Shown here: positions 24,521-44,259 of the stretch, in pieces
Layout of the letters: each line of letters opens with the position of its first letter
Position numbering within the stretch: position 1 is the stretch's first letter
Source of the DNA: Janthinobacterium agaricidamnosum
GTDB taxonomy: Bacteria > Pseudomonadota > Gammaproteobacteria > Burkholderiales > Burkholderiaceae_D
Reading direction: 5' to 3'
NCBI RefSeq assembly: GCF_003667705.1
Contig: NZ_CP033019.1
Span: 2,418,001 to 2,482,000 of the forward strand
DNA: 64,000 nucleotides
Made by a program: the position numbers and the translations under genes
Notes under the pieces: generated by a model
Told to the model about the DNA's origin: nothing
The model's database searches: none
The model's input: only the letters and a program-made list of their open reading frames with translations

Positions 24521-25288
24521 TTATTCCGCTATAAAAAGTTCGATGCCCAGCTTGTGCAGCCCTTCGCGGTATTCCTGGCTGATGCTGGCATCGGTGATGA
24601 CGGTATCGACGCGGTCCAGCTGCACGATACGGTGCAGGCTGACGCGGCCGAACTTCGAGGCGTCCGTGAGGACGATGATTTTCTTGGCCCGTTCCACCAT
24701 CTTGTGGTTCAGGCTCGCTTCCGCTTCGTGGTGGGTGGTGACGCCGAACTGCAGGTCGAAGCCGTCCACGCCCAGGAACAGCTTGTCGAAGCTGTAGGCC
24801 TGCAGACAGGTTTCGGCCTGGCTGCCCTGGATCGACAGCGACTGCTTGCGCAGCAGGCCGCCCGTGAGGATCAGGTCCACGCCGGGCGCGTCGGCCAGCT
24901 CCCACGCGATGTTCAGGCCATTCGTGGCCACCGTCACGCCGGTGGCGTCGCGCAGATGGCGCGCCAGCGAGATGGTGGTGGTGCCCGAGTCGATGATGAT
25001 GTTGTCGCCCGGTTCCACCAGCCGCGCCGCGTAGGCGCCGATGCGCTCCTTCTGCTCGTGGTTGATGGCATCCTTCTGGCGTATCGTATGCTCGGGCGGC
25101 GGCGTGCGCGTCAGGGTCGCGCCGCCGTGGCTGCGCGTGGCCATGCCTTGCGCTTCCAGCGCATTCAAGTCGCTGCGGATGGTGACCGCGGACACGCCGA
25201 GCTTTTCCACCAGATCGGTCACCTGCACCGAGCCCTGCTGGGCAAGCATTTGGAGGATGGATTCACGGCGTTGGCTGGTATTTCGCAT
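24521..25288 (-). CDS. agaR: DeoR-family repressor, AgaR-like
   Basis: A 255-residue DeoR-type regulator read from ATG 25288 (MRNTSQRRESIL). The N-terminal helix-turn-helix covers about 5-55 (VTDLVEKLGVSAVTIRSDL). The sugar-phosphate sensing domain has NIIIDSGTTT at about 95-104, TNGLNIAWEL, and LTGGLLRKQSLS. AgaR of enterobacteria represses GalNAc genes and is released by a pathway sugar phosphate. The repeated CGAAAG/CTTTC motifs in front of agaS, the GH31 gene and the second TonB receptor are the likely operators. The open frame extends upstream into the kbaZ gene, but that part is a shadow. Confidence 0.88.
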   Translation of the reverse strand: MRNTSQRRESILQMLAQQGSVQVTDLVEKLGVSAVTIRSDLNALEAQGMATRSHGGATLTRTPPPEHTIRQKDAINHEQKERIGAYAARLVEPGDNIIIDSGTTTISLARHLRDATGVTVATNGLNIAWELADAPGVDLILTGGLLRKQSLSIQGSQAETCLQAYSFDKLFLGVDGFDLQFGVTTHHEAEASLNHKMVERAKKIIVLTDASKFGRVSLHRIVQLDRVDTVITDASISQEYREGLHKLGIELFIAE

Positions 25289-26670: not shown

Positions 26671-27620
26671 GTTGACGCCTTTATATGTTGTCGTATCAAA
26701 AGGGCCGCGCCGCGCGCGCCGCCGGCGTCGCCAAAGCGGGGCGGCAGGATGGGCGGCACGTGCACGCCGGGGAACAGGTGGCGTTTCACGGCGGCCGGCA
26801 GCTTGTCGTACAGGTGCGGCAATTTGGACAGGCCGCCGCCAAGCACGATGACGTGCGGGTCGTAGGCCAGCACCAGGCCGGCCAGCGCGTGGCCCAGCAC
26901 GTCGAGGTGCACGGCCACCGTGCGTTCGGCCACGGCGTCGCCCATGTTGGCGCGTGCCACGATGGCCAGCGGCTCGGCGCCGTCGCCGCCGAAATGCGCG
27001 TGGAGTTTACTCATGGCGGGTCCGGAAACGTAGCGTTCCAGGCAGCCCGCCTTGCCGCACGGGCAGGCGTAATCGATCAGGCCATGCTGCGCCAGCAGGG
27101 AGGCGGGCAGGCTCCAGTGGCCCCATTCGCCGGCCACGCCGTTCAAGCCGCGCAGCAGCTGGCCGCCCACGCAATAGCCGCCGCCGGCGCCCGTGCCGAG
27201 GATGGCGCCGAACATGCTGGCGGCATGGTCGGCCGTGCCGCCTTGCGCTTCCGACAAGGCGAAGCACTGGCAATCGTTGCCGATGGCGACAGGGCGCTGC
27301 AAGGCTTGCTGCAGGGTTTGCGCCACCAGGCGGCCGTTCAGGGCCGGCACGTTGGAGCTCAGTTGCCGGCCGCTGGCGCTGTCGATCACGCCGGGCAAGC
27401 CGATGCCGACGGGCGCCGTCGTGCCCAGCGCGGCGTCGCCGCGCGCCACCAGGTCGACGATCGCCTGCACGAAGGCGCTAAAATCGTCGCCCGGCGTGGC
27501 CACGCGCTCGCGGAACGTTTCGGTCAGCGCGCCGTCGCGGTCGGCAAAGGCGACCAGCTCCATCTTGCTGCCGCCGATGTCGATGCCGTGAAAGCCCTGG
27601 ATGGAATTAGAATTGGTCAT
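26667..27620 (-). CDS. agaK: ROK-family amino sugar kinase, probable GalNAc kinase
   Basis: A 317-residue ROK kinase read from ATG 27620 (MTNSNSIQGF). The ATP-binding start GIDIGGSKMEL is at about 10-20, the sugar-binding block VAIGNDCQCFALSEA near 130-145, the glycine-rich GTGAGGGYCVGG near 160-172, and the zinc motif CPCGKAGCLE near 200-210. By context it phosphorylates imported GalNAc at position 6, the AgaK step. The start overlaps the end of agaS by 14 bases and its end overlaps kbaZ by four, so the genes are tightly coupled. Confidence 0.85.
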   Translation of the reverse strand: MTNSNSIQGFHGIDIGGSKMELVAFADRDGALTETFRERVATPGDDFSAFVQAIVDLVARGDAALGTTAPVGIGLPGVIDSASGRQLSSNVPALNGRLVAQTLQQALQRPVAIGNDCQCFALSEAQGGTADHAASMFGAILGTGAGGGYCVGGQLLRGLNGVAGEWGHWSLPASLLAQHGLIDYACPCGKAGCLERYVSGPAMSKLHAHFGGDGAEPLAIVARANMGDAVAERTVAVHLDVLGHALAGLVLAYDPHVIVLGGGLSKLPHLYDKLPAAVKRHLFPGVHVPPILPPRFGDAGGARGAALLIRQHIKAST

Positions 27621-28755
27621 AGCCATAGATGGTGACGCCCTGCACGACACGGTTGACGATGCCGCCGGCGAATGGATTGTCGGGGCGCAGTTGCAGCAGC
27701 GCGGACTGGTGCAGCGCATATTGCTGCGCCATCAGCAGCCACAGCGGGGCCAGCCAGGCGTCGGGCCAGGCCGGCGCGTCGGCCGCCAAGTTGGCAGATA
27801 AGTCGCCGCCGATGCCCACCGTCAGGCACGTCTGCGCCACGCTGTCGCGCTGCAGTTCCTGCAGTAAGTCGTCTTCGTACTGGCGCGCCAATGGCTTGCT
27901 GCTGCGCAGCAGGATCACCAAGGACTCCGTGGTGACTGCCGATTTCGGGCCATGGCGGAAGCCCAGCGGCGTATTCGCCATGGCCATCACGCGCCCGCCC
28001 GTCAGTTCCAGAATTTTCAATGCCGCTTCCTTGGCCAGCGCTTCCAGCGGGCCGCTGCCCAGGTAAACGACGCGCTGCACCGGCTGCGAGCCCAGGTCCG
28101 CCACGGGAGCCGACCAGTCGCGCAGGGCGTCTTCGCCCAGCTGCGCCAGGGTCTCGAGGCGCGCCACGTCGACGTCCTTGCCCAGTACCGACAGGGCCGC
28201 CAGCAGCATGCTGCTAAAGCTGCTGGTCATGGCGAAGCCGCGGTCGCAGCTGCCTTCCGGCATCAGCAAGTTATATGTATTGCTGTCGTTGGCGCCTTGG
28301 CGCGCCAGCTTGCCATCGGCGTTGCAAGTGATGTTCAGGAAGCGCGCACCGGGCACGACCTGGCGCAGCAGTTCCACGGCCGCCAGGCTTTCCGGGCTGT
28401 CGCCGCTGCGGGCAAACGAGACGAGCAGGGTGGGCGCATCCGCTTCCAGGTACAGCTCATGGTGCGTCAGCAAAGTCGTGGTGGCGATGGCGCGGATCTG
28501 CGCGGGCCAGGCGGCATTCAGGGTGTCGACGACGATTTCGCCCACATACGCCGAGCTGCCGGCACCCGTCAGGATCACGCGCTGCTGTGGATGGGACAGC
28601 GCATCGCCCAGAAAGGCGGCCAGGCTGGCTTGCTCGCTGCGCAAAATGCCGGCCAGCGCGCGCCAGATGGCGGGCTGATGGGCGATTTCCTCGGCCGTGT
28701 GCAGGCCGCCGATGTCGCGCCAGGTTTGAATGTCACGCTGAAGAAGGGTAGTCAT
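27607..28755 (-). CDS. agaS: AgaS, SIS-domain galactosamine-6-phosphate deaminase/isomerase
   Basis: A 382-residue protein with two SIS domains (about 40-190 and 215-350). The sugar-phosphate pocket is marked by LTGAGSSAYVGE and by SFARSGDSPES, and the family-typical YLGSGPLEALAKEAALK is present. AgaS converts galactosamine-6-phosphate to tagatose-6-phosphate with release of ammonia. It is the first gene of the aga operon. No clear Shine-Dalgarno motif precedes the ATG; the predicted transcript leader is only about 23 bases. Confidence 0.9.
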   Translation of the reverse strand: MTTLLQRDIQTWRDIGGLHTAEEIAHQPAIWRALAGILRSEQASLAAFLGDALSHPQQRVILTGAGSSAYVGEIVVDTLNAAWPAQIRAIATTTLLTHHELYLEADAPTLLVSFARSGDSPESLAAVELLRQVVPGARFLNITCNADGKLARQGANDSNTYNLLMPEGSCDRGFAMTSSFSSMLLAALSVLGKDVDVARLETLAQLGEDALRDWSAPVADLGSQPVQRVVYLGSGPLEALAKEAALKILELTGGRVMAMANTPLGFRHGPKSAVTTESLVILLRSSKPLARQYEDDLLQELQRDSVAQTCLTVGIGGDLSANLAADAPAWPDAWLAPLWLLMAQQYALHQSALLQLRPDNPFAGGIVNRVVQGVTIYGYDQF

Positions 28756-28784: not shown

Positions 28785-28834
28785 AGCATAAATACTAAAT
28801 TTCGAAAAGTCAAATACGAAAGTAAAACGAAAGT
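28785..28834 (-). promoter_or_regulatory. agaS promoter with paired AgaR-type operators
   Basis: On the minus strand TTGACT (28813-28808) and TATGCT (28790-28785) are separated by 17 bases. Directly upstream are two CTTTCG repeats (CGAAAG on the plus strand at 28817-28822 and 28828-28833), 11 bases apart, one helical turn. CTTTC-rich sequences are the known targets of E. coli AgaR. Confidence 0.72.
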
Positions 28835-28948
28835 AAATAGTTGTGTGGCTTGCGAAATAATGGCGTCGGACTGGTGCTTTTCTGGACGCAAATCATGTTG
28901 CGCTGCCGCATGAAACCCAGTCGTGCCGCCGCCTGTCGCTGAAATACG

Positions 28949-29079
28949 ACGATAACGAAAGTATGTTTTGTGACATTTTGTTGAAACGTAAGAAAAATGC
29001 GCCAATTCTGGGCATTTTATTAATAAATCGGTCTAAGAACTTTCTTTTGATTGACGATATTTATTTTTCTTCTTAAAGT
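28949..29079 (+). promoter_or_regulatory. Promoter and AgaR-type operators of the GH31 gene
   Basis: TTGACG at 29051-29056 and TAAAGT at 29074-29079 have a 17-base spacer. Operator-like elements precede it: ACGATAACGAAAGT at 28949-28962, CGTAAG at 28987 and ACTTTC at 29039. All keep the same distance to the -35 as in the copy before the second TonB receptor. Confidence 0.75.
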
Positions 29080-29113
29080 ATTTCCATCACTTCGATTTTC
29101 TGAAAGCCCGCAG

Positions 29114-32100
29114 ATGAAACCTCTCCCGCTTCCCCGCCGCGCCCTTGCCGCCTGTGTCCTCGCCGCCCTTGCCACCCTGGCCGCTCCTGGCTTGCAAGCC
29201 GCGCCTATCGGCAATCTGCAGTCGCTCTCCGCCGTGCATGCGGCCGACGTGGCCAAGGGCGAGGCGCTGGGATGGGATCTGCGCAGCGACACGGGCGTGC
29301 AGCTGCGTATCAGCCTGCCGCAGGCGGACGTGTTGCGCATCCAGGCGGGCGGCAAGGGGGGCTTGACGGGTCCCGGCGACAAGGCCGCGCCCATCGTCGT
29401 GGGCCAGCCCGCCGCGCAAGTGGCATACGAGATCAGCGAGCATCCCGACCATATCCTGATCAGCACCGAAGCCCTGAACCTGCGCATCGACCGCAAACCC
29501 TTGCGCCTTACCTTGTACCGCAAGGGCGATGCGGTGCCGCTGTGGCGCGAAGTGCAGCCGCTGTCGCTCGACGACAAGCAGGGCGTGCAGGTGCTATCGA
29601 GCTTGCCGGGTGAGCGTTACTTCGGCGGCGGGCAGCAAAATGGGCGCTTCGAGTTCAAGGGCAAGCAGGTGCCCGTGTCGTATTCGGGCGGCTGGGAAGA
29701 GGGCGACCGGCCGAATCCCGCGCCATTCCTCATGAGTTCACGGGGCTGGGGCATGCTGCGCAATACCTGGTCCGACGGGCACTACGATTTGCGCGACAAG
29801 GAACAGATCTCGCTGCAGCACGCGGAAGGGCGCTTCGATGCGTATTTCTTCGTCGGCAAGGACTTGCGCGACGTCGTCGCCCGCTACACGGACTTGACGG
29901 GCCGCGCGCGCATGCTGCCCCGCTGGGCGCTCGAATACGGCGACGCCGATTGCTACAACGATGGCGACAACGTGAAAAAGCCCGGTTCCGTGCCCAAAGG
30001 CTGGAGCGACGGCCCCACCGGCAAGACGCCGGACGTGGTGGAAACCGTGGCGCGCCAGTACCGCGAACACGACATGCCAGGCGGCTGGATCTTGCCCAAC
30101 GACGGCTATGGCTGCGGCTACACGAACTTGCCGGAAACGGTGAAGGGCCTGGCCGGCTATGGCTTCCGCACGGGCCTGTGGACGGAAAACGGCGTCGACA
30201 AGATCGCCTGGGAAGTGGGCCAGGCGGGCAGCCGCGTGCAAAAGCTGGACGTGGCGTGGACGGGCAAGGGATATCAATTTGCCATGGATGCGAACAAGTC
30301 TGCGTATGACGGCATCCTGAACAACTCCGACAGCCGCCCCTTCCTCTGGACGGTGATGGGCTGGGCCGGCATCCAGCGCTATGCCGTGGCGTGGACGGGC
30401 GACCAGAGCGCCAGCTGGGACTACATCCGCTGGCACATTCCGACCCTGATCGGCTCGGGCCTGTCCGGCCAGGCATATGCCTCGGGCGACGTGGATGCCA
30501 TCTTCGGCGGCAGCCCGGAAACCTATCTGCGCGACTTGCAGTGGAAAAGCTTTACGCCCGTGCTGATGGGCATGTCCGGCTGGGCCGCGGCCGAGCGCAA
30601 GCATCCGTGGTGGTTCGAGCAACCGTACCGCGACATCAACCGCCGCTATCTGAAGCTCAAGATGCGTTTGACGCCATATATGTACACCCTGGTGCGCGAA
30701 GCGGAGCAATCGGGCGCGCCGCTGGTGCGCGGCCTGATGTGGGATTATCCGCAAGACCCGGCCGCCTACACGGAAGCGTATAAATATCAATTCCTGCTGG
30801 GCCGCGACGTGCTGGTGGCGCCCGTCTACCGCAGCCAGGCCGTCAGCGGCGGCTGGCGCAAGGGCATCCACCTGCCGCAGGGTACGTGGTATGACTACTG
30901 GGATGGCCGCCAGGTCACGGCGGACGCGAAAGGGCGCGACCTCGATATGCAGGTGACCCTGGACAAGCTGCCCGTGTTCGTGCGCGCCGGCGCCATCCTG
31001 CCCATGTATCCGGAAATGCTGTACGACGGCCAGAAACCGAAGGACCAGCTGACGTTCGATATCTACCCGCACGGCGATTCCGAATACACCCTGTATGAAG
31101 ACGACGGCAACACGCGCCAGTACCAGGGCGGCGCCTTCAGCCAGCAAATCATCCGCATGCACCAGACGGGCGCCGACGTGCAGGTCGACATCGGCGCCGT
31201 CGATGGCAAGTACCAGGGCCAGGAAGCGCGCCGCGGCTATGCGCTGCGCATGCTGGCAGGCCAGGCACCGGCCGCCGTCAAGGCGGGCGAACGGCTGCTC
31301 GCGGCATCCGCCGACCGTGCCGCCTACGACAAGGCGCTTGATGCCTGGTTCTTCGATCCTGCCGACCGCCAGGGCACCCTGCACGTGAAGGTGGCGGCGC
31401 AGGATATCCGCCAGCCCCTGGCCTTGCAGGTGGCCGGCGCGCTGGCCGTGGCGCGTATCGATGCCGACTTCCCCGTCGCCCCCGTGCCGGGCCGCGCCTT
31501 GCCGGCTGACGCCATGCAGGTGGTGTCGCGTCCTGCGGAAGAAAGCGGCTATCCGCTGGAAAACGCCTTCGACGGCAAGCCCGAGACCTGGTTCCGCACC
31601 GTGCGCAGCCCGTCCGTGAAAAGCGGTCCCCATGAATGGGTGATCGGCTTTTCGGAACGCCGCCTCGTCGATGGCATCGAACTGGCGCCGCGCAACGATC
31701 AGCACTGGAAGCATGGCCAGGTGCGGGATTACGAAATCTACATTGGCGACAACAACGGCGAGTGGGGCGCGGCGCTTGCGCGCGGCACGCTCAAATTGCA
31801 AGAGGGTACGCAGACGATCAATTTCCCCGCCACGGCCGGGCGCTTGCTGCGCTTCCGCGTGATGAGAACGCAAAATCCGGAAGGCGATGGCGCCGCATCC
31901 ACCGACCCGATGGTGACGGCGGCGCAAGCCGGGCCGGTGGCGCGCGCGTTCGACGCGGCGCTGGCGAGCGACGTGGCGCCCGTGACCTTGTCCGCATTCC
32001 GCGTGCTCGAACACCGCGTGGCCGAAGCAGAAGAGGTGCAGCGCTATCTGTCGGACCTGGCGCTGCCGAAGACTGTCGCGAAAGACCGGCCGGCCGGCAA

Positions 32101-32464
32101 GGCCGCCGAGATGCGCATGAACGGGCTGTGGTTCCGCAAGGGCCTCGGCGTGGGACCCGCCAGCCGCATCGACTTGCAGCTGGCGGGCAACTGGAATCTG
32201 CTGCGCGCCGACCTGGGCGTGGACGATAGCTGCCGCAGCGCGGGCGGCTTGCAATTCCAGGTCTGGAGCGGTGAACGGCTGCTGTATGACAGCGGCCTGG
32301 TCACGGCTCCCGGGGTGGTCAAACCCGAAATCGACGTGCGCGGCCTGAGCCAGCTCAGTTTGCGCACCCTGGGCGCGCGCGGCGCCCACCCGGCCCAGGT
32401 CTGCGGCAACTGGGCCAACGCCGTGCTGACCGGCACGGAGGGCGCGACAGTCAAGCCGCGCTAA
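29114..32464 (+). CDS. Secreted GH31 alpha-N-acetylgalactosaminidase-like enzyme with F5/8C and NPCBM modules
   Basis: A 1116-residue secreted enzyme read from ATG 29114, which gives a clean signal peptide (to about residue 29). A GH31 N-terminal beta domain precedes the catalytic barrel (about 230-600). The nucleophile is probably D379 (KLDVAWTG) and the acid/base D430 (WTGDQSASWDY). The DVAW motif and overall pattern resemble the GH31 subfamily that includes alpha-N-acetylgalactosaminidases rather than alpha-glucosidases. After a C-terminal beta domain come an F5/8 type C module (about 800-930) and an NPCBM module (about 960-1110, with FRKGLGVGPASRIDLQL), both glycan-binding. The subfamily assignment rests on motifs and on the aga neighbourhood. 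Expected role: release of terminal alpha-GalNAc outside the cytoplasm. Confidence 0.82.
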   Translation: MKPLPLPRRALAACVLAALATLAAPGLQAAPIGNLQSLSAVHAADVAKGEALGWDLRSDTGVQLRISLPQADVLRIQAGGKGGLTGPGDKAAPIVVGQPAAQVAYEISEHPDHILISTEALNLRIDRKPLRLTLYRKGDAVPLWREVQPLSLDDKQGVQVLSSLPGERYFGGGQQNGRFEFKGKQVPVSYSGGWEEGDRPNPAPFLMSSRGWGMLRNTWSDGHYDLRDKEQISLQHAEGRFDAYFFVGKDLRDVVARYTDLTGRARMLPRWALEYGDADCYNDGDNVKKPGSVPKGWSDGPTGKTPDVVETVARQYREHDMPGGWILPNDGYGCGYTNLPETVKGLAGYGFRTGLWTENGVDKIAWEVGQAGSRVQKLDVAWTGKGYQFAMDANKSAYDGILNNSDSRPFLWTVMGWAGIQRYAVAWTGDQSASWDYIRWHIPTLIGSGLSGQAYASGDVDAIFGGSPETYLRDLQWKSFTPVLMGMSGWAAAERKHPWWFEQPYRDINRRYLKLKMRLTPYMYTLVREAEQSGAPLVRGLMWDYPQDPAAYTEAYKYQFLLGRDVLVAPVYRSQAVSGGWRKGIHLPQGTWYDYWDGRQVTADAKGRDLDMQVTLDKLPVFVRAGAILPMYPEMLYDGQKPKDQLTFDIYPHGDSEYTLYEDDGNTRQYQGGAFSQQIIRMHQTGADVQVDIGAVDGKYQGQEARRGYALRMLAGQAPAAVKAGERLLAASADRAAYDKALDAWFFDPADRQGTLHVKVAAQDIRQPLALQVAGALAVARIDADFPVAPVPGRALPADAMQVVSRPAEESGYPLENAFDGKPETWFRTVRSPSVKSGPHEWVIGFSERRLVDGIELAPRNDQHWKHGQVRDYEIYIGDNNGEWGAALARGTLKLQEGTQTINFPATAGRLLRFRVMRTQNPEGDGAASTDPMVTAAQAGPVARAFDAALASDVAPVTLSAFRVLEHRVAEAEEVQRYLSDLALPKTVAKDRPAGKAAEMRMNGLWFRKGLGVGPASRIDLQLAGNWNLLRADLGVDDSCRSAGGLQFQVWSGERLLYDSGLVTAPGVVKPEIDVRGLSQLSLRTLGARGAHPAQVCGNWANAVLTGTEGATVKPR

Positions 32465-32489
32465 CTACTTCAATCATTTCACTAACAAC

Positions 32490-32518
32490 GAGCCCCTCTT
32501 CGGACCGGGGAGGGGCTC
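32490..32518 (+). terminator. Intergenic hairpin after the GH31 gene
   Basis: GAGCCCCTC and GAGGGGCTC form a perfect 9-base stem around an 11-base loop, followed by only TT. It may attenuate rather than stop transcription, because the TonB receptor gene starts soon after and has no obvious promoter of its own. Confidence 0.6.
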
Positions 32519-32556
32519 TTGCAGCCTGACGAAAACAAATCACTTATAAAAGGGAG

Positions 32557-35523
32557 ATGGGAATGCACTTGAAAAAACTGATGTCCGCCATGGTGGCGGT
32601 CGGACTTGGCTCAACCGCGTTGGCGTCGACGGCGCTCGCGGCGGAGGAGGAAAAACTGGCGCGCGTCGAAGTGACGGGTTCCAGCCTGAAGCGCATCAAT
32701 GCGGAAACGGCGTCGCCCGTGCAGGTGATCAACGCCAAGCAGATCGAAAACATGGGCGCGCTCACCTTGCTGCAGGTGCTCGACAACCTGCCCGCGGCCC
32801 GTCCGGCGCAGCAGGACTTCCGCTCGATGTTCACGGGTTCCGATGGCGGCTCGCAGGCGAACTTGCGCGGCATGGGCGCGCAGGGCACGCTGGTGCTGCT
32901 CAATGGCCGCCGCCTGTCGTTCTACGGCGCGCCGGCCGGCTTCCAGACCATGTTCGTCAATATCGACGCCATTCCCGCCGCCGCCATCGAGCGCATGGAG
33001 ATTTTGACGGATGGCGCGTCGGCCGTGTATGGCTCCGATGCCGTCGCCGGCGTCATCAACGTGATCACCAAGAAGTCGTATCAAGGGCTGGAGGCGCGCG
33101 CCAACGGCGAGTTTTCGCCCAGCGTGAAAGCGTACGGCGAACGCCAGGCCAGCGTGCTGTATGGCGTGGGCGACCTGGCCAGCGACGGCTACAACATCTA
33201 CGGTTCCGTCAACGTCTACCAGCGCGACCGCATTGCGCTGGCCGATACCTGGCAGAAGCGCCCCTCGTATTTTTATGTGAACAATCCCAATTTCATCCCG
33301 AACATGCGCGTGGGCGTGGGCAGCGAACCGGGCGTGATGAATCCGGGGACCTTCTTTGTCTTCGACAAGGCCAACAACAATGCCCGCACCCAGCGCGCCG
33401 CCCCCGGCTGCAACAACAGCATCACCGAAGCGTCGGGCACGCGCTGCGTGTGGAATGCGCTGCCCAACCAGCTCGATACGGGCCCCACCTCGGAGCGCGC
33501 CACGGCCTACCTGAGCGGCCGGCTGAAGCTGGGCGGCGACATGGAAGCGTTCGCGGAAGGTGCGTTCACCCACATCAAGATGCGCGGCGAGAATGGCCCC
33601 TCCAGCTTCAACAGCGGCAGCACGAACAACTGGTTCGCGCGCAATACGGGCACTACCCTGAACACCTTCGCCACGCCTTTCCTGAGTCCCAACAACGTCT
33701 ACCTGAAGGGCAAGCTCGATGCTGACATGGTGGCCAAGATGGGTGGCGCCGCCGGCTTGAACTACCTGCTGCAGGATGCCACGGGCCACTTCGGCCAGAA
33801 GAATGTCGATGAAAACTACCGCGCGCTCGTCGGCCTGCGCGGCAGCATCGGCGGCGGCTGGGATTTTGAAACGGCGCTCAGTGTGGCGGGCAGCCATTCC
33901 ACGCTGTTCCAGACGGCGAACGTGAATATCAATGGCTTCAAGCAGGCGTTCGGCCCGTTCACGAAAGATCCCGTCAGCGGCCGCACGTATATCTCCGACA
34001 ATCCCGCCTACAAGTTCGGCGAAATCAGCGAGGCCAATGCGGCGCTGCTGCGCGCCGCCTATCCGACCTTCGCCATCGAATCGTGGACCAAATTGATGAC
34101 CTGGGACGCCAAGCTGGAAGGCACCCTGTTCAAGCTGGGCGAGCGCGAAGTGCGCGCCGCCGTGGGCACCAACGTCATGCGCGAAAGCTTCCTCACGCCC
34201 GGCAACGCGGATGCGGCCAATGGCCTGATCACGCAGCAGGGCGGTTCCTGGTTCGATGGCAAGCGCACCATCGCCGCCGTGTTTGGCGAAGTGGTGGTGC
34301 CGCTTTCCGACACCCTGGAAGTCAATGCGGCCGCGCGCCTGGACAAATACCCGCATTTCTCGGCCAACCTGGCGCCCAAGCTGGGCGTGATCTGGCGCGC
34401 GCGTCCCGACCTGATGCTGCGCGGGACGTATTCGGAAGGCTTCCGCGCGCCCAACCTGGCTGAATCGGGCTCGGGCGGCGTCTTTGCCCAGGTGGGCGGC
34501 ATCCGCGATACGGTGCGCTGCGATGAGACGAATGCCATGGCGCGCGCCCTGATGAAGTCCAGGGTGGCGACGGACGCGGACCTGGGCAAGAGCCTGCTCA
34601 ATTCGAACTGCTCGACGACGGTGGGCGGCCTGACGCCGCCGAACCAGAACCTGCGTCCGGAAAAGGCCAAGATTTCCACCGTGGGCCTGGTCCTGCAGCC
34701 GGCCAAGGACGTGAGCATCTCCATCGATTACTGGTTCATCAACCGCCGCGACGAGATCGTGCGCCAGGACTTCAACGAACTGTTTACGGAACTGGTGGAC
34801 AAGTACGGCCCGACCCTGGCCGGTACATCGAGCGCCATCCGCAACGACTTGACGGACACGGACCGGGGCAATATGGCGGCGGTGGCGGCCATGTGCGCCA
34901 ATCCCGCCAACGCGGGCGTGTGCGCGGGCGGCGTGCCGGGCTACTCGGTGGGCAACCTGGGTGGCTTGATCAACTCGTATTCGAACCGCGGCCGCACCCT
35001 CATGGACGGCGTGGACATCGACGCGCGCACGCGCTTTGCGCTCGGCGACTGGGGCAAGCTGAGTACCGGCATCGCCGCCACCATCCGCAAGCGCGACACC
35101 CACGACAGCGAAGACGGCAGCGATATCAAGGGCAATACCGTCGGCTACTACGATTCGCCGCGCTACCGCGCCACCGTCAACGCCGACTGGAGCTACCGCA
35201 ATTTCGTCAGCAGCGTCTTCATCAACTATTCTGGCAAGACGCGCTGGGCCTACGGTCCGTGGGACAAGGACAACACGCCGGAAAACTGCACCGCCGCCTC
35301 GGTATCGCTGCCGGCCGGCCAGTGCAAGGGCGCGCCGTCGTACACCACGGTGAACCTGGCCTTCAGCTGGAAGCCGCTCAAGAACCTGGACGTGGGCCTG
35401 AACGTGAAGAACGCGTTCAACAAGCAGCCGTACTACGACCCGAACGGCTGGGAAGGCTACAACCATAGCCAGGACCTGTTCGGCCGCCAGTTTGCCCTGT
35501 CGGCCAGCTACAAGTTCTTTTAA
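32557..35523 (+). CDS. TonB-dependent outer-membrane receptor (first of the aga locus)
   Basis: A 988-residue TonB-dependent receptor with a signal peptide (KKLMSAMVAVGLGSTALA) and a TonB-box-like stretch KLARVEVTGS right after it. The plug domain covers about 45-190 (ASPVQVINAKQIENMG, GSQANLRGMGAQGTLVLLNG, LTDGASAVYGSDAVAGVIN) and the beta barrel the rest, ending with aromatic F as usual (SASYKFF). The plug pattern is that of the large carbohydrate or oligomer receptor group common in Oxalobacteraceae and Xanthomonadaceae. By context it imports GalNAc-containing glycan fragments. It lies 92 bases after the GH31 gene. Confidence 0.88.
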   Translation: MGMHLKKLMSAMVAVGLGSTALASTALAAEEEKLARVEVTGSSLKRINAETASPVQVINAKQIENMGALTLLQVLDNLPAARPAQQDFRSMFTGSDGGSQANLRGMGAQGTLVLLNGRRLSFYGAPAGFQTMFVNIDAIPAAAIERMEILTDGASAVYGSDAVAGVINVITKKSYQGLEARANGEFSPSVKAYGERQASVLYGVGDLASDGYNIYGSVNVYQRDRIALADTWQKRPSYFYVNNPNFIPNMRVGVGSEPGVMNPGTFFVFDKANNNARTQRAAPGCNNSITEASGTRCVWNALPNQLDTGPTSERATAYLSGRLKLGGDMEAFAEGAFTHIKMRGENGPSSFNSGSTNNWFARNTGTTLNTFATPFLSPNNVYLKGKLDADMVAKMGGAAGLNYLLQDATGHFGQKNVDENYRALVGLRGSIGGGWDFETALSVAGSHSTLFQTANVNINGFKQAFGPFTKDPVSGRTYISDNPAYKFGEISEANAALLRAAYPTFAIESWTKLMTWDAKLEGTLFKLGEREVRAAVGTNVMRESFLTPGNADAANGLITQQGGSWFDGKRTIAAVFGEVVVPLSDTLEVNAAARLDKYPHFSANLAPKLGVIWRARPDLMLRGTYSEGFRAPNLAESGSGGVFAQVGGIRDTVRCDETNAMARALMKSRVATDADLGKSLLNSNCSTTVGGLTPPNQNLRPEKAKISTVGLVLQPAKDVSISIDYWFINRRDEIVRQDFNELFTELVDKYGPTLAGTSSAIRNDLTDTDRGNMAAVAAMCANPANAGVCAGGVPGYSVGNLGGLINSYSNRGRTLMDGVDIDARTRFALGDWGKLSTGIAATIRKRDTHDSEDGSDIKGNTVGYYDSPRYRATVNADWSYRNFVSSVFINYSGKTRWAYGPWDKDNTPENCTAASVSLPAGQCKGAPSYTTVNLAFSWKPLKNLDVGLNVKNAFNKQPYYDPNGWEGYNHSQDLFGRQFALSASYKFF

Positions 35524-36014
35524 GACGTGACGCCGCCCCGGCCTGCCAGCGGGCCGGGGTATCGTCATGAAAAGAAAAAGACAATATTCCGAAATGCGCA
35601 ATACGAAAGATAAACGTAAGTGAAAGGGGATTGCCATGGCTACTTTCGCGTTTTTCCATCGGGATTGCCGTGTGGAATGTCTCCTGCGGGCCGCCTTCTT
35701 GCCGGCGCGTGTATCCGCCACGCCACGATAACGAAAGTTATTTGCCGCATCACGGATTGAATCGAAAGATAAAACGTCTTTATTTACTGAATTTAGCGAT
35801 AAATTTGCGCTGTAACTTTCTTTTTGTTGACGATACTTATTTTTCTTTTTAAAGTAATCCCAAGAAAACGAAAATCAGCCAAGACGGACTGATTTCCCGG
35901 AAGGAACGGCTGCCTGGCTCTCCCTTCCGACGCTCACCATAAAAATTGCATCCCCCCGACTTCGCCCTGGAGCGGGGAGGGCGCGTATAACCCTCGATAT
36001 AGACGGAGAGACAC
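35524..36014. other. Intergenic control region duplicated from the agaS-GH31 region
   Basis: No gene is seen in these 491 bases. A GC-rich hairpin (CCCCGGCC/GGCCGGGG, 35534-35560) follows the first receptor. Then come CGAAAG at 35604 and CGTAAG at 35615 (11 apart), the box ACGATAACGAAAGT at 35725, CGAAAG at 35763, ACTTTC at 35815 and a promoter at 35827-35855. The order and spacing repeat those of 28756-29113, although no divergent gene exists here. Confidence 0.7.
35725..35855 (+). promoter_or_regulatory. Promoter and AgaR-type operators of the second TonB receptor
   Basis: TTGACG at 35827-35832 and TAAAGT at 35850-35855 have a 17-base spacer. ACGATAACGAAAGT at 35725, CGAAAG at 35763 and ACTTTC at 35815 start 102, 64 and 12 bases before the -35, the same three distances as in front of the GH31 gene. 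The predicted leader is about 150 bases. Confidence 0.75.
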
Positions 36015-39000
36015 ATGCATACCACCCGACTCAAATTGCGCGACATCAGCCGCGCCGCCGCGATCGTGATCGCCCTGGCGGCCGGCGTGCCAGGCCAGGC
36101 CTGGGCACAGTCGAACGCCACCAGCACCATCTTCGGCGAAGTGAGCGCGCCCGCCGGCGCCACCGTGGTGCTGGAAAACCTGGCGACGGGCGTGCAGCGC
36201 ACCCTGACGCCGGATACGTCGGGCCGCTATGTGGCCAACTCCATGCCGCCGGGCCGTTACGCGGTGCGCGTGCTGCGCGCCGGGTCGGTCGAAGCGTCGC
36301 AGGAAGTCGAAGCCCTGATCGGCGCGGGCGCCGAAGCGAACTTCGGCCCGGCCAGCGCGGCCGGCCCCGTGGGCCAGGAACAGACCGTCGTGGTGAAGGC
36401 GTCGCGCAATCCGATCGACGTGTCGAACACGAACAATGGCGTGATCTTCACGGCCAAGGAATTGAAAGCGCTGCCGGTCGGCAATGACGTGGCCTCCATC
36501 GTGCAGCTGACGCCGGGCGTGTCGCGCGGCACCAATAGCGTGTACGGCAATGCGCCATCGATCGGCGGCTCGGGCCAGTCGGAAAACGCGTTCTACGTCA
36601 ACGGCTTCCCCATCACCAACATCCTGACCCAGGTGGGCGCGTCGGAACTGCCGTTTGGCGCGATCTCCAACCTGCAGGTGCTGTCGGGCGGCTATGGTTC
36701 GGAATTCGGCCGCTCCACGGGCGGCGTGATCAATATCACCACCAAGAGCGGCGGCAACAAGGTCGAATTCGGCGGCAAGGTCTCCATCATTCCCCGTTCG
36801 CTGAAAGGCGAGCCGGAAAACACGTATTACCCGAACACGGGCGCCAATCCCAAGACGGACGGCAATCTGCTGTACTGGAACCGCGACAACGGCAGCACCA
36901 GCAAGGTGGTGGGCCTGTACGGCAGCGGTCCCCTGATCAAGAACAAGCTGTTCGCCTTCGTGGCGCTGGAACAGACGCGCACCGACAGCCAGGCCGTCGC
37001 CGCCACCGCCGACTCGGGCACGGCCCTGGCGCGCGGCTGGAGCACGAGCCAGAGCAAGGTGGACCGCATGACGGCCAAGCTCGATTTCAACCTGACGGAC
37101 GACCATCACTTCGAATATACCAAGCTGTATGACCGCACGAAGACGGACAGCCAGGCGTATGGCTACAGCTACGCCACGCATGCGAGCAACGGCGTACAGG
37201 CAGGCAAGGGCGAGACGACGGTCAACTGCTGCGGCTCGTCGGCCGCGCCGGGCGCCAACATCGACATTTTCAAATATACGGGCTACCTGACGGACAACCT
37301 GACCGTGACGGCCATGATGGGCGAATCGCGCACCTCGCACACGCGCACGCCGAATGGCTACAATCCGCTGCTGGCGCAAACGTCGTCGAACGCATCGACC
37401 CAGGTGCCGGGCCTGAGCTATGCCAATCCGCAGACGGTGACGGGCACCCTGGTCGACCCGTCGTCGGAAGACCGCCAGAAAGCCAAGCGACTCGATCTCG
37501 AATACAAGCTGGGCAAGCATTCGCTGCGCGGCGGCATCGACCGCATCGACGTGGAATCGAAAGTGGGCCTGAGCCTGGCCGGCGGCTACCGCTGGAGCTA
37601 CCAGCGCGCGACCGATCCGAACCGCCCGATCAACGGCGCGTTTGAAACGCCGGCCCAGGGCGGCGGCTACGGCGCGCAAGGCTACTACGTCAGCAAGGAC
37701 TTGAACGCCAACCTGGCGCGTCCGACCAGCGTGCAATCGGCGCAATACATCCAGGATCACTACCAGGTTACGGAACGGGTGCTGCTGGACCTGGGCCTGC
37801 GCCGCGAACAGTTCACCAACTACAGCACCGATGGCGTGGCCTTCATTTCGCAGCGCAACATGATCGCTCCGCGCGTGGGCGCCACCTGGGATTACCTGGG
37901 CGACGGCACCCTGAAATTCTTCGCCAACGGCGGCCGCTACCACCTGCCGGTGCCATCGAATTTGTCGAGCAACATGGCCAGCCCTTTCCTGGCCACCAGC
38001 GAGATGTACACTTACACGGGCGTCGATCCAGTCACGGGCGCGCCGACGGGCCTGCACGCGATCAGCAAGCCGTATTCGGCCAACAACGCGTATGGCCAGA
38101 GCCGCGATGCGCGCGAAGTGACGGCCATCGGCTTGAAGCCGCTGTCGCAGGATGAATTCTCGCTCGGTTTCGAACGCGCCCTGAGCAAGAAGCTGGTGGT
38201 GGGCGCCAGCGTCCTGTACCGCAAGCTGAACGACACCAACGACGACACCTGCGACGCGCGTCCGCTGCAAGCCTGGGCCACGCGCAACAGCGTCGACACG
38301 AGCAACTGGGGCGGCTTCCAGTGCGCCATCATCAACCCGGGCCGCGACAACAGCCTGATGGTGGACTTCGACGACGGCAAGGGCTTGCGCCGCGTGGATA
38401 TTTCGGCGGCCGAGTGGGGCAACCCGCTGCCATCGCGCACCTACCGCGCCCTGAACCTGTTCGTCGAGCACCCGTACACGAACGGCTGGTACGGCAAGCT
38501 GACCTACACCCTGTCTGCGCTGAAGGGCAATATGGAAGGCCAGACGGACAGCATCGGCGGCGGCGACGTGGGCCTGACGGTCAGCGACGACCACAAGGAA
38601 CTGATGTACAACGCCTATGGCTACCTGCCGGGCGACCACCGCCATGCGTTCAAGGCCTACGGCTTCATGCAGGTGATCCCGGACGTGACGGTCGGCGCCA
38701 ACCTGTCGCTGACCTCGGGCGCGCCGCGCAACTGCATCGGCGCGCTGCCCGATAACCTGAGGTTCGAGAACGACTACGGCGATTCCTACTTCTATTGCAA
38801 TGGCAAGCCGGCGCCGCGCGGCAGCCAGGGCCGCCTGCCATGGCAAGCCCAGCTGGACATGAATCTGGCCTATACTCCCAGCGCCGTCAAGGGCCTGAGC
38901 CTGAAAGTGGACGTGTTCAATGTGTTCAACAGCCAGACCGTGACCCGCTACAACGAAACGCGCGAAGACCACGGCGCCATCGCCCGCAGCTATCTGCAGG

Positions 39001-39056
39001 TGGCCGGCCGCACGGCGCCGCGTTCCGTGCGCTTCACGGCGGAATACACTTATTAA
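36015..39056 (+). CDS. TonB-dependent receptor with N-terminal carboxypeptidase-regulatory-like domain
   Basis: A 1013-residue Oar-type receptor. A signal peptide ends near residue 32 (QAWAQ). A small beta-sandwich domain (about 38-95, with VVLENLATGVQRTLTPDTSGRY) of the carboxypeptidase-regulatory type precedes a TonB-box-like EQTVVVKAS. The plug covers about 130-240 (ELKALPVGNDVASIVQLTPG, YGSEFGRSTGGVINITTKSG) and the barrel follows, ending in FTAEYTY. Such receptors take up large ligands, often glycans or glycopeptides. It has its own AgaR-type promoter and is followed by the GH109 gene after a hairpin, so the two probably form one transcript. Confidence 0.88.
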   Translation: MHTTRLKLRDISRAAAIVIALAAGVPGQAWAQSNATSTIFGEVSAPAGATVVLENLATGVQRTLTPDTSGRYVANSMPPGRYAVRVLRAGSVEASQEVEALIGAGAEANFGPASAAGPVGQEQTVVVKASRNPIDVSNTNNGVIFTAKELKALPVGNDVASIVQLTPGVSRGTNSVYGNAPSIGGSGQSENAFYVNGFPITNILTQVGASELPFGAISNLQVLSGGYGSEFGRSTGGVINITTKSGGNKVEFGGKVSIIPRSLKGEPENTYYPNTGANPKTDGNLLYWNRDNGSTSKVVGLYGSGPLIKNKLFAFVALEQTRTDSQAVAATADSGTALARGWSTSQSKVDRMTAKLDFNLTDDHHFEYTKLYDRTKTDSQAYGYSYATHASNGVQAGKGETTVNCCGSSAAPGANIDIFKYTGYLTDNLTVTAMMGESRTSHTRTPNGYNPLLAQTSSNASTQVPGLSYANPQTVTGTLVDPSSEDRQKAKRLDLEYKLGKHSLRGGIDRIDVESKVGLSLAGGYRWSYQRATDPNRPINGAFETPAQGGGYGAQGYYVSKDLNANLARPTSVQSAQYIQDHYQVTERVLLDLGLRREQFTNYSTDGVAFISQRNMIAPRVGATWDYLGDGTLKFFANGGRYHLPVPSNLSSNMASPFLATSEMYTYTGVDPVTGAPTGLHAISKPYSANNAYGQSRDAREVTAIGLKPLSQDEFSLGFERALSKKLVVGASVLYRKLNDTNDDTCDARPLQAWATRNSVDTSNWGGFQCAIINPGRDNSLMVDFDDGKGLRRVDISAAEWGNPLPSRTYRALNLFVEHPYTNGWYGKLTYTLSALKGNMEGQTDSIGGGDVGLTVSDDHKELMYNAYGYLPGDHRHAFKAYGFMQVIPDVTVGANLSLTSGAPRNCIGALPDNLRFENDYGDSYFYCNGKPAPRGSQGRLPWQAQLDMNLAYTPSAVKGLSLKVDVFNVFNSQTVTRYNETREDHGAIARSYLQVAGRTAPRSVRFTAEYTY

Positions 39057-39122: not shown

Positions 39123-40514
39123 ATGACGACACAATTCAATCGACGCAATTTCCTTTCCGCCAGCGCCGCGCTGGCCGGTGGCGCCATGGCAGGCAGCGCC
39201 TTGCTGCCTGGCGACGCCAACGCCGCACCCGCCGCCGGCCGCGACAAGGTTCGCCTGGGCCTGATCGGCACGGGCATGCGCGGGCAGGTGCTGCTGGCCG
39301 AACTGGTGCGCCGCGACGACGTGGAAGTCGTTGCCCTGTGCGATATCGAACCGATCATGCTGAAACATGCGCTGGGCCAGGTGGAAAAAGCCGGCAAGCC
39401 GCGCCCGCGCACTTATGGCGAAGACCGCGACCAGAAAGCCTACAAGCGCATGCTGGACGCGGGCGGCCTCGACGGCGTGATCATCGCCACGCCGTGGGAA
39501 TTCCATGCGCCGATGGCGATCGCCGCCATGCAGGCGAAGATCGCCGTCGGCTGCGAAGTGGTGGCCGGCATCACCCTGCAAGACCACTGGGATGTCCTGA
39601 ATACCCAGCTGAAGACGGGCACGCCGTACATGTTGCTGGAAAACGTGTGCTACCGCCGCGACGTGATGGCGGCGCTGCAGATGGTGCGCGCGGGCCTGTT
39701 CGGCGAACTGCTGCACCTGCAAGGCGGCTACCAGCACGATCTGCGCGCCGTCAAATTCAACAGCGGCAATCCGGCCAAGCCGTACGGCGGCGGCGTGGAA
39801 TTCGGAGAGAAGGGCTGGTCCGAAGCCCATTGGCGCACGCAGCACTCGGTCGAGCGCAACGGCGAACTGTATCCGAGCCATGGCATCGGCCCCTGCGCCA
39901 TGTACACCAACATCAACCGCGGCAACCGTTTTACGCGCATCAACGCCTTCGCCACCAAGGCGCGCGGCTTGCACGACTACATCGTCAAGCAGCCGGGCGG
40001 CGCGCAGCATGCGAACGCCAAGGTGAAATTCAAGCTGGGCGACGTGGTCACCACGACCCTGGCGTGCGAAAACGGCGAAACCATCATCCTGCAGCACGAT
40101 ACGAGTCTGCCGCGCCCGTATTCGCTGGGCTTCCGCGTGCAAGGCACGGACGGCCTGTGGATGGACCTGAACAATTCCATCCATATCGAGGGCGTCAGCA
40201 AGCCGCACCAGTGGGACGACTTCAAGGCTTACCAGGACAAGTATGAACACCCCGTCTGGCGCAAGTATGCGGCGCAAGCCGAGGGCGCGGGCCACGGCGG
40301 CATGGACTTCTTCGTCATCCACGCCTTTGTCGAAGCATTGAAGGCCAACGCGCCGATGCCGATCGATATCTACGATGCCGTGACGTGGAGCGCCATCACG
40401 CCGCTGTCCGAGCAATCGATCGCCGCCAACTTCCAGACCCTGGACTTCCCGGACTTCACGGGCGGGCAGTGGAAATCGCGCAAGCCGATCTTCGCCCTCG
40501 ACGGCAAGTACTAA
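39123..40514 (+). CDS. Tat-exported GH109 alpha-N-acetylgalactosaminidase-like protein
   Basis: A 463-residue Gfo/Idh/MocA-fold protein. The N-terminus carries a twin-arginine signal (DRRNFL-like RRNFLSASAALAGG), expected for an enzyme exported with its NAD. The Rossmann start VRLGLIGTGMRGQ is at about 43-55, followed by CDIEP and the block CEVVAGITLQDHWDVL. The segment YPSHGIGPCAMYTNINRGNRF is typical of GH109 enzymes such as the Elizabethkingia alpha-N-acetylgalactosaminidase. These use NAD in a redox-assisted cleavage of alpha-GalNAc. Specificity is inferred from family and context. Followed by a clear terminator. Confidence 0.85.
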   Translation: MTTQFNRRNFLSASAALAGGAMAGSALLPGDANAAPAAGRDKVRLGLIGTGMRGQVLLAELVRRDDVEVVALCDIEPIMLKHALGQVEKAGKPRPRTYGEDRDQKAYKRMLDAGGLDGVIIATPWEFHAPMAIAAMQAKIAVGCEVVAGITLQDHWDVLNTQLKTGTPYMLLENVCYRRDVMAALQMVRAGLFGELLHLQGGYQHDLRAVKFNSGNPAKPYGGGVEFGEKGWSEAHWRTQHSVERNGELYPSHGIGPCAMYTNINRGNRFTRINAFATKARGLHDYIVKQPGGAQHANAKVKFKLGDVVTTTLACENGETIILQHDTSLPRPYSLGFRVQGTDGLWMDLNNSIHIEGVSKPHQWDDFKAYQDKYEHPVWRKYAAQAEGAGHGGMDFFVIHAFVEALKANAPMPIDIYDAVTWSAITPLSEQSIAANFQTLDFPDFTGGQWKSRKPIFALDGKY

Positions 40515-42475: not shown

Positions 42476-42683
42476 GTTCGCCTTTCAATGGGGGATGCAT
42501 GGCCAGGGTGGCCGGCTTGTCGATGATGTTGCCGATACTATCATTGCCGCGTAGCCGGGCGCGTTCTGCTGAATTTGCAATGCAGGCTACGCCACCGGAT
42601 ACGATCAGCAAGGAAATTTTGGAAAGAAGCGCGTCAAACAAGCGCTGGCAGGGCGCTTGCGCCGCAGCAGCGTATGGATATAG

Positions 42684-42702
42684 AATGCGAATCATTATTA
42701 TT
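42684..42702 (+). promoter_or_regulatory. Candidate Fur box before the second FecI-like gene
   Basis: AATGCGAATCATTATTATT matches the palindromic Fur-type pattern AATGAGAATTATTCTCATT at 15 of 19 positions, and a further overlapping ATTATTTGCGAAT half follows. It lies about 22 bases before the GTG start, in the expected promoter area. Confidence 0.68.
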
Positions 42703-42724
42703 TGCGAATCGGGGAGTATGCGAC

Positions 42725-43237
42725 GTGTCGGCGGCCCAACCCGGCGCTCACCAGGAGGTGGGCAGCCTGTATCACGAACACCACCGGTGGCTGCAAGGCT
42801 GGCTGCGGCACAAGCTGGGCAACGCCTTTGACGCGGCCGACGTGGCGCACGACACCTTCATGCGCCTGCTCAATCGCGACGAAGCCATCGCCGCGCGCGC
42901 GCCTCGCGCCTTTTTGACGACGGTGGCCAAGGGCGTGCTGGGCAATCTGTACCGCCGGCGCGACCTGGAGGCGGCTTACCTGGAAACGCTGGCCAGCCTG
43001 CCGGCGCAGCACGCGCCCGATCCCGAGGCGCAGGCGATCCTGCTCGAAGCCCTGTTCGACATCGACCGCCGCCTCGATGGCCTGGCGCCTGCCGTGCGCC
43101 GCGCGTTCCTGCTGTCGCAGCTCGATGGCATGCCGCAGGCGGCCATCGCGCTGGAACTGAATGTCTCGCTGGCGACCGTGCAGCGCTACCTGGTCAAAGC
43201 CATGCACCAGTGTTTCTTTACCCATCCGGCATCGTGA
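42725..43237 (+). CDS. ECF RNA polymerase sigma factor, FecI-like (second copy)
   Basis: A 170-residue FecI-type sigma factor read from the GTG at 42725 (MSAAQPGAHQEVGSLY), which has GGGGAG nine or so bases upstream. The frame is open to 42575, but the added residues cross the Fur box. Region 2 (VAHDTFMRLLNRDEA, FLTTVAKGVLGNLYRR) and region 4 (LSQLDGMPQAAIALEL, SLATVQRYLVKAMHQC) are clear. The stop overlaps the FecR start by one base (TGATG). It should control the siderophore receptor gene downstream. Confidence 0.9.
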   Translation: MSAAQPGAHQEVGSLYHEHHRWLQGWLRHKLGNAFDAADVAHDTFMRLLNRDEAIAARAPRAFLTTVAKGVLGNLYRRRDLEAAYLETLASLPAQHAPDPEAQAILLEALFDIDRRLDGLAPAVRRAFLLSQLDGMPQAAIALELNVSLATVQRYLVKAMHQCFFTHPAS

Positions 43238-44211: not shown

Positions 44212-44259
44212 ATATTTTTTGAAAAGTGAGGGGTTTGCGATTTTCGCGTGACATAGCAA

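Follow-up and report, generated by a model that had tools for sequence, protein, structure and literature searches.

Among the DeoR-family repressors of Escherichia coli, DeoR and UlaR loop DNA between operators, those of UlaR lying around divergent promoters. For the loops of LacI and GalR, repression depends on whole helical turns between the operators; the demonstration used spacers engineered in a single species, and most knowledge of how repression loops depend on helical phase comes from such constructs in E. coli. AgaR of E. coli also belongs to the DeoR family of repressors (PMC4694137) and binds upstream of agaR, kbaZ (agaZ) and agaS (PMC3668189, PMC4694137). The genes for N-acetylgalactosamine (GalNAc) in Proteobacteria and their regulation, including the AgaR regulon, have been reconstructed comparatively (Leyn et al., 2012, cited in PMC4694137), and passages on AgaR in PMC3668189 and PMC4694137 mention neither phasing nor looping. 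Here we analyse a GalNAc locus in a 64,000-nucleotide stretch (the window; contig NZ_CP033019.1, positions 2,418,001 to 2,482,000) of the 6.36-Mb single-contig genome of Janthinobacterium agaricidamnosum. Two of its promoters, P1 and P2, are probably preceded by copies of one AgaR-controlled switch, in which AgaR at a distal operator array (D) and at a promoter-side pair of operators (A/B) would be in contact across a short repression loop. Across the Oxalobacteraceae, the distances between these operators have changed almost only by whole helical turns, which suggests that the repressor must hold distant copies on one face of the DNA.

The Janthinobacterium locus shares with the E. coli aga/gam regulon a DeoR-family AgaR encoded beside GalNAc genes and CTTTCG (in reverse, CGAAAG) words repeated at about 11 base pairs (bp), which in E. 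coli lie in the aga intergenic DNA of the agaR/kbaZ region. It differs in that its putative targets also include GH31, TonB receptor and GH109 genes, and in having a conserved A/B pair 31 bp apart, a helix-phased distal spacing and a duplicate of the control region without a divergent gene. As in DeoR and UlaR, proteins of the same family, several operators lie around the promoters, whereas looping by AgaR is read from comparative spacing alone, at natural distances of 65-139 bp. Unlike the engineered LacI and GalR spacers of one species, the spacers considered here are natural, come from many species and cluster at lengths that differ by steps of about 10.4 bp. In the agaR/kbaZ intergenic region of E. 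coli K-12 (L186:3167-3414), CTTTCG occurs at 9, 20 and 159 and TTTCG also at 31; the 139 bp from 20 to 159 equal the D-A distance at P1 of the window, perhaps by chance.

P1 lies upstream of the genes GH31-TBDT1 and P2 upstream of TBDT2-GH109-DUF3472, TBDT standing for TonB-dependent receptor. The initial annotation of the window, made from the letters, had reported that both promoters carry the same -35/-10 pair and motifs at identical distances from it, and every one of these elements was recovered at its place. The pair is exact, TTGACG-17-TAAAGT, with the -35 starting at 29051 in P1 (29051..29079, plus strand) and at 35827 in P2 (35827..35855, plus strand). Counted from the -35, ACGATAACGAAAGT begins at -102 in both regions (A1, 28949..28962; A2, 35725..35738; both plus strand), a hexamer stands at -64 (B1, CGTAAG, 28987..28992, which is 31 bp after the CGAAAG of A1; B2, CGAAAG, 35763..35768; both plus strand), and ACTTTC adjoins the -35 at -12 (29039..29044 and 35815..35820, plus strand), with an extra ACTTTC at -185 in the P2 region. 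The distal hexamers, 11 bp apart, are found at -234/-223 in P1 (CGAAAG at 28817 and at 28828) and at -223/-212 in P2 (CGAAAG at 35604, CGTAAG at 35615). To each distal pair we add a CGAAA 14 bp to its left (28803 and 35590), giving the arrays D1 (28803..28833) and D2 (35590..35620); the three words of D1 are identical in 13 of 13 aligned Janthinobacterium loci. D1 lies flush with the -35 box of the divergent agaS promoter (TTGACT, 28808..28813, minus strand; the putative -10 box, TATGCT, read from the sequence at 17-bp spacing, is at 28785..28790, minus strand); the distal pair of P1 belongs to that promoter, as had been proposed, and at D2 the pair is kept with neither a divergent gene nor an agaS-type promoter. 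A T-rich stretch with CTTTC stands right upstream of the -35 in P1 (29040-29082), P2 (35816-35858) and many relatives; it could serve as an UP element, as an AgaR half-site or in both roles.

A genome-wide pattern search found the distal pattern CGAAAGNNAAACGNAAG exactly at two places and at two more with one mismatch. The 14-mer ACGATAACGAAAGT has two exact matches in the genome, two more at one mismatch and 16 at two, and the 41-bp promoter core occurs at two places with up to three mismatches. These counts, together with conservation in 13 and later 24 Janthinobacterium genomes, exclude a chance likeness of two AT-rich regions. Because D, A and B carry a common hexamer, agaR lies in the locus and a word of this kind is repeated at 11 bp in E. 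coli, AgaR is the likely binder.

To compare spacings across the family, a GH31 search supplied 80 loci and pattern searches added others. Of 392 genomes of the family, 60 showed the D motif (three of them as chance matches); these include 26 of the 40 that were sampled from the window's genus. Searches of genera g40 and g18 found it in 31 of 74 and in 6 of 62 genomes, the sets overlapping in part. We measured distances between the agaS-side array D, the promoter-side pair A/B and the promoter core P, first in 70 Oxalobacteraceae loci after removal of duplicates and then in 79, with nine held-out loci added. Two-mismatch motif matches without a promoter (G011, G234, G348) were excluded as chance; L074, L087 and L089 were dropped for want of a recognisable D element (5-7 mismatches); L059, L070, L071 and L086, from other Burkholderiales, were measured and kept outside the tests. 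D was recognised in all 70 loci first measured, each with an agaS -35 beside it (TTGACT in 47, TTGACA in 23), and D, A and B bear one common hexamer, degenerate in some copies, in the 79 loci. The measuring script restricted the A-B spacing to 30-32 bp; a separate, unconstrained check took the last two CGWAAG words lying beyond 40 bp downstream of D, and their spacing was exactly 31 bp in 58 of 59 loci. Changes in spacing were reconstructed by parsimony on one agaS gene tree, a change of 5 bp or more being called large.

In the first 70 loci, D-A takes values of 65-66, 76, 87, 96-98, 106-108, 127-128 and 139 bp, D-P of 140-141, 172, 182-184, 192-193, 202-204, 222-223 and 234 bp, and B-P of 44-45, 54 and 64-65 bp. 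A period of 10.41 bp describes the seven D-A classes to within 0.6 bp, a regularity equalled by none of 20,000 random sets. On the tree of these loci, all 12 large D-P changes are no more than 1.5 bp away from whole turns, and the 10 large D-A changes come closer still, to 0.6 bp or less. With 79 loci, 16 of 16 large D-A changes fall within 1.5 bp of a multiple of 10.5 bp (p<=5e-6), as do 14 of 16 for D-P and 5 of 5 for B-P. When a single Janthinobacterium was kept (54 loci), 11 of 11 D-A and 9 of 11 D-P changes were in phase, and bootstrap trees (40 for the 70 loci, 30 for the 79) gave similar values. The D-A spacer sequences of different lineages mostly align no better than shuffled ones.

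Control spacers do not behave in this way. Large changes were unphased in the gap between GH31 and TBDT1 (9 changes, p=0.42), between P and the GH31 start (6, p=0.72) and between agaZ and agaR in Xanthomonadaceae (4, p=0.92); the remaining control spacers had too few large changes for a test. A permutation of the test changes against 20 pooled large control changes gave p=2e-5; this pool and the control set of the Fisher test below both omit three Xanthomonadaceae changes between P and the GH31 start (-74, -24 and 36) and one Xanthomonadaceae change between the agaS start and D. Among changes of any size, the set used for a Fisher test, out-of-phase sizes (3-8 or 12-18 bp) account for none of 28 in D-A and 19 of 75 in the control spacers (p=0.0014), or 13 of 61 when only the Oxalobacteraceae controls are taken (p=0.008).

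The expected spacing classes were fixed before the held-out loci were fetched. An AgaS protein search of two genera returned 15 orthologous loci outside the motif set, of which nine were tested after removal of five duplicates and one stretch cut by a contig end. Eight of the nine had a D-P distance no more than 2 bp from a predicted class (p=0.003), among them L264, whose 162 bp fill a class predicted and until then unseen; seven had a D-A distance no more than 1.5 bp from one (p=0.003). AgaS paralogues gave no extra loci of the P type: in 11 g40 stretches (L279-L289), the best match to D has 3-5 mismatches in 12 fixed bases. These eleven genomes bear a second AgaS-like gene, 54-60% identical and without a D element, which perhaps marks another amino-sugar locus.

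One whole-turn step can be followed within Janthinobacterium. In 26 distinct loci the D-A spacer of P1 measures 128 bp in 18, 127 bp in one and 139 bp in seven, the window among the last, and the D-A spacer of P2 in the window is 128 bp. The 11-base difference between the two regions that the initial annotation had pointed out is therefore real and amounts to one helical turn; it is, however, not a property that sets P1 apart from P2, since the P1 insertion is present in 7 of 26 loci. As the 139-bp forms of P1 arise by 11-bp insertions, the difference is one such step. In an alignment of 13 Janthinobacterium rows, 9 have a gap at the insertion of the window (28879..28889 in the D1-A1 spacer, a placement that depends on the alignment). 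The 139-bp forms in this alignment carry their insertion at two different places of the spacer (the window, L023, L029 and L062 versus L025 and L030), and the inserted 11-mers are not operator repeats.

The P2 region repeats the elements of the P1 region, their order and their spacing, and is present in 24 of the 25 distinct P1-bearing Janthinobacterium genomes checked (G146, where the contig ends, is left out of the count). Cassettes of A, B and P away from agaS, scanned in the window and the 80 GH31 loci with one mismatch allowed in the two words, were found in Janthinobacterium only (13 hits, with a core of the Janthinobacterium type); none besides P2 appeared. The duplication of the control region proposed in the initial annotation is thus supported; its recency is not, at least within the genus, given that nearly all P1-bearing genomes have P2. 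In relatives, where a lack of conservation of the motifs or of the spacing had been named as refuting the reading of the initial annotation, the motifs are conserved and the spacing across Oxalobacteraceae is phase-locked. Pairwise identity among the 24 genomes is 0.981 for the D2 core, 0.947 for A2, 0.936 for B2 and 0.967 for the promoter core, against 0.593 for the D2-A2 spacer, 0.671 upstream, and 0.786 and 0.698 for the 20 bp to the left and right of D2. In the register of the agaS -35 these genomes have 12 different hexamers at P2, none with a 5/6 match, and when all registers near D2 were scanned, no best minus-strand pair had a 5/6 -35; at P1, all 26 Janthinobacterium regions have a 5/6 -35 together with a 4/6 -10. 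The D2-P2 distance is 223 bp in 21 genomes, 222 in two and 224 in one, whereas the distance from the TBDT1 stop codon to D2 varies between 80 and 100 bp.

At P1, conservation of D is ambiguous, because D1 serves the control of both agaS and GH31. At P2 the agaS-type promoter is lost and D2 is nevertheless kept, which argues that D is kept for the distant promoter, and the retention of D2 looks selected. What is special at P2 is the conservation of a distal word array that has neither promoter nor gene of its own and whose distance agrees with the classes seen across the family. Two observations on gene order touch this region. In one genome (G157, L185), the GH31/TBDT2 junction holds a hairpin-like stretch similar to the ones that follow GH31 and precede TBDT2 in the window, suggestive of recombination between those two. 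In some Duganella (L033, L039, L044, L049), TBDT2 rather than GH31 is divergent from agaS behind the same kind of D-A-B-P region, the receptor and hydrolase genes being shuffled and the control region staying beside agaS.

We propose that AgaR binds the CGAAAG words at D and at the A/B pair, whose members are about 31 bp or three turns apart, and possibly also the CTTTC adjoining the -35. Contact between AgaR molecules would join D and A/B over 66-139 bp into a short repression loop, too short to twist freely, so that its length could alter only by whole turns and the spacers would evolve in steps of about 10.4 bp. At P1, the D array would additionally cover the divergent agaS promoter. In the Janthinobacterium lineage the control region would have been duplicated before TBDT2 and the agaS promoter there would have decayed, the distal array and its spacing being retained as the loop onto P2 still mattered. 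Release from repression would follow a metabolite of the GalNAc pathway. Binding by AgaR, its multimerisation, the formation of a loop, its repressive effect and its release are all inferred, and the helical phasing across Oxalobacteraceae is strong indirect support for looping, one of the two readings offered in the initial annotation: a phase-locked spacing of 65-139 bp enclosing mostly non-aligning sequence is what a short repression loop would be expected to select. Tighter phasing of D-A than of D-P (16/16 versus 14/16) favours a contact between operators. That the Oxalobacteraceae switch as a whole represents a naturally occurring set of AgaR loops, whose lengths come in helical-turn steps at operator distances between 65 and 139 bp, with operator contact as the quantity under selection and P2 separating the distal operator from the divergent promoter, is a fuller claim to which we give about an even chance.

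Several points weigh against this proposal. Two of the 16 large D-P changes, of 7 and 19 bp, are off phase, and all counts of changes depend on parsimony and on a single gene tree. Two held-out loci missed their D-A class, L269 by +1.9 and L278 by -1.55 (in the latter the distal word is degenerate and was positioned manually), and several of the nine are close kin of known loci, so that not all are independent. Fourteen of the 40 genomes sampled from the genus have no D1 motif and stand outside the P2 count, and in G157 both P2 and TBDT1 are missing, GH31 being followed directly by TBDT2. The P2 leader, measured between the -35 and the motif that precedes the TBDT2 start, is also nearly constant in Janthinobacterium (159-161 bp), and a constant D2-P2 length therefore proves little by itself; the argument for P2 rests on the conservation of D2 and on the family-wide steps, not on constant length.

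The Xanthomonadaceae are a further difficulty. Their loci (L063-L102, L190-L263) keep the D element; in most of them, one inverted CTTTCG some 44 bp ahead of the -35 replaces the A/B pair and the promoter reads TTGAC...CTAGAGT. In 84 loci with 12 large D-P changes, phasing at 10.5 bp is weak (mean cosine 0.31, p=0.068) and is best at 11.0 bp (p=0.015). These are 84 of 94 rows, from which L070, L071, L086 and L088 were left out, as were L087, L089, L192, L214, L215 and L259, which have no agaS beside the motif; L218 yielded no promoter. As a second, independent proof of phasing the family was dropped, the p=0.004 obtained at 33 loci not having held at 84, and we therefore limit the claim to Oxalobacteraceae. 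One record in this set, titled Bacillus subtilis SK7B5 (L085), holds a Stenotrophomonas-like GalNAc locus and is probably a contaminated or mislabelled assembly.

Two arrangements other than a loop would also require phase, namely wrapping of the DNA in a complex and contact with RNA polymerase. In the first of these, which we regard as unlikely, AgaR, possibly with IHF or HU, would wrap or coat the DNA from D to A/B as one extended, unlooped complex. It fits the identical phase data, and A and B at three turns resemble adjacent sites on one face; the coat would, however, lack evident sites, since 19 representative architectures have no exact forward CGWAAG between the D array and A. About as unlikely, in our view, is that D is an activator or enhancer-like site whose target is RNA polymerase, with phase needed for contact at P. 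Here the phasing of D-P and B-P and the retention of D2 where the divergent promoter is absent are as expected, whereas the tighter phasing of D-A is not, and E. coli AgaR is a repressor whose deletion makes agaA and agaS constitutive (PMC3668189). We hold it very unlikely that the sites are independent and that steps of 10-11 bp merely reflect shared ancestry or a mutation bias towards gain and loss of an 11-bp repeat unit. The operators are themselves repeats of 10-12 bp, the lineages are related and several held-out loci are closely related to known ones; yet the 11-mers inserted in Janthinobacterium are not operator repeats and sit at two different places, control spacers change by irregular sizes, the effect survives bootstrap trees and the single-Janthinobacterium subset, spacers of different lineages mostly align no better than shuffled ones, and D2 is kept without agaS. 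That the steps reflect geometry between two divergent promoters, through two polymerases or supercoiling, is barely credible: at P1 the agaS -35 keeps a set position with respect to D, which makes D-P phase a promoter-promoter phase, but P2 keeps D2 and its distance to P2 with no agaS-type promoter in 24 genomes.

Repression loops and their dependence on helical phase are known; a family-wide, naturally quantised series and a duplicate without a divergent promoter were not found in our literature search, and neither natural helical quantisation of operator spacing nor looping by AgaR appeared in the titles or abstract openings that these searches of open-licence papers brought up. Under the looping proposal, nature seems to have repeated the insertion experiment under one regulator, with 28 reconstructed D-A changes and none out of phase, and P2 shows a distal operator kept after loss of its own promoter. 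The natural spacers make looping by AgaR directly testable; if the proposal is true, comparing genomes gives direct access to loop phasing, and comparative spacing becomes a criterion for spotting loops in other regulons.

The minus strand of the locus carries agaS, a ROK kinase gene, agaZ, agaR and genes for a NagA-like deacetylase and a sugar transporter, and the plus strand GH31, the two TonB receptors, GH109 and a DUF3472 protein gene; agaR is thus co-encoded with the catabolic genes agaS, agaZ/kbaZ and the deacetylase gene. The product of agaR (24521..25282, minus strand), the proposed binder of all operator sites, is assigned to the DeoR-family repressors by family models: it matches the NCBIfam AgaR equivalog NF040755 over its full length with 331.8 bits (cut-off 260) and NF007316 with 364.9 bits (cut-off 351), and has the Pfam domains DeoRC and HTH_DeoR. 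The agaZ_gatZ model passes its cut-off at the locus, and the agaS_fam and nagA models fall below theirs; AgaS (27607..28755, minus strand, divergent from P1), a SIS-domain sugar isomerase, scores 404.4 bits against TIGR02815 agaS_fam (cut-off 529.2). On the plus strand, the GH31 enzyme (29114..32464) has NPCBM and F5/8 type C domains and is 94-96% identical to the proteins of 10 of 12 Janthinobacterium loci and 90% to the other two. It is followed by TBDT1 (32557..35523), TBDT2 (36015..39056; CarboxypepD_reg, plug and OMP_b-brl_4 domains) and the GH109 family protein (39123..40514; Glyco_hydro_109_C match), which, going by the family name, is likely an alpha-N-acetylgalactosaminidase. Close to the GalNAc locus, at 42575-46758 of the window, lies a set of genes for a sigma factor, FecR and a TonB receptor.

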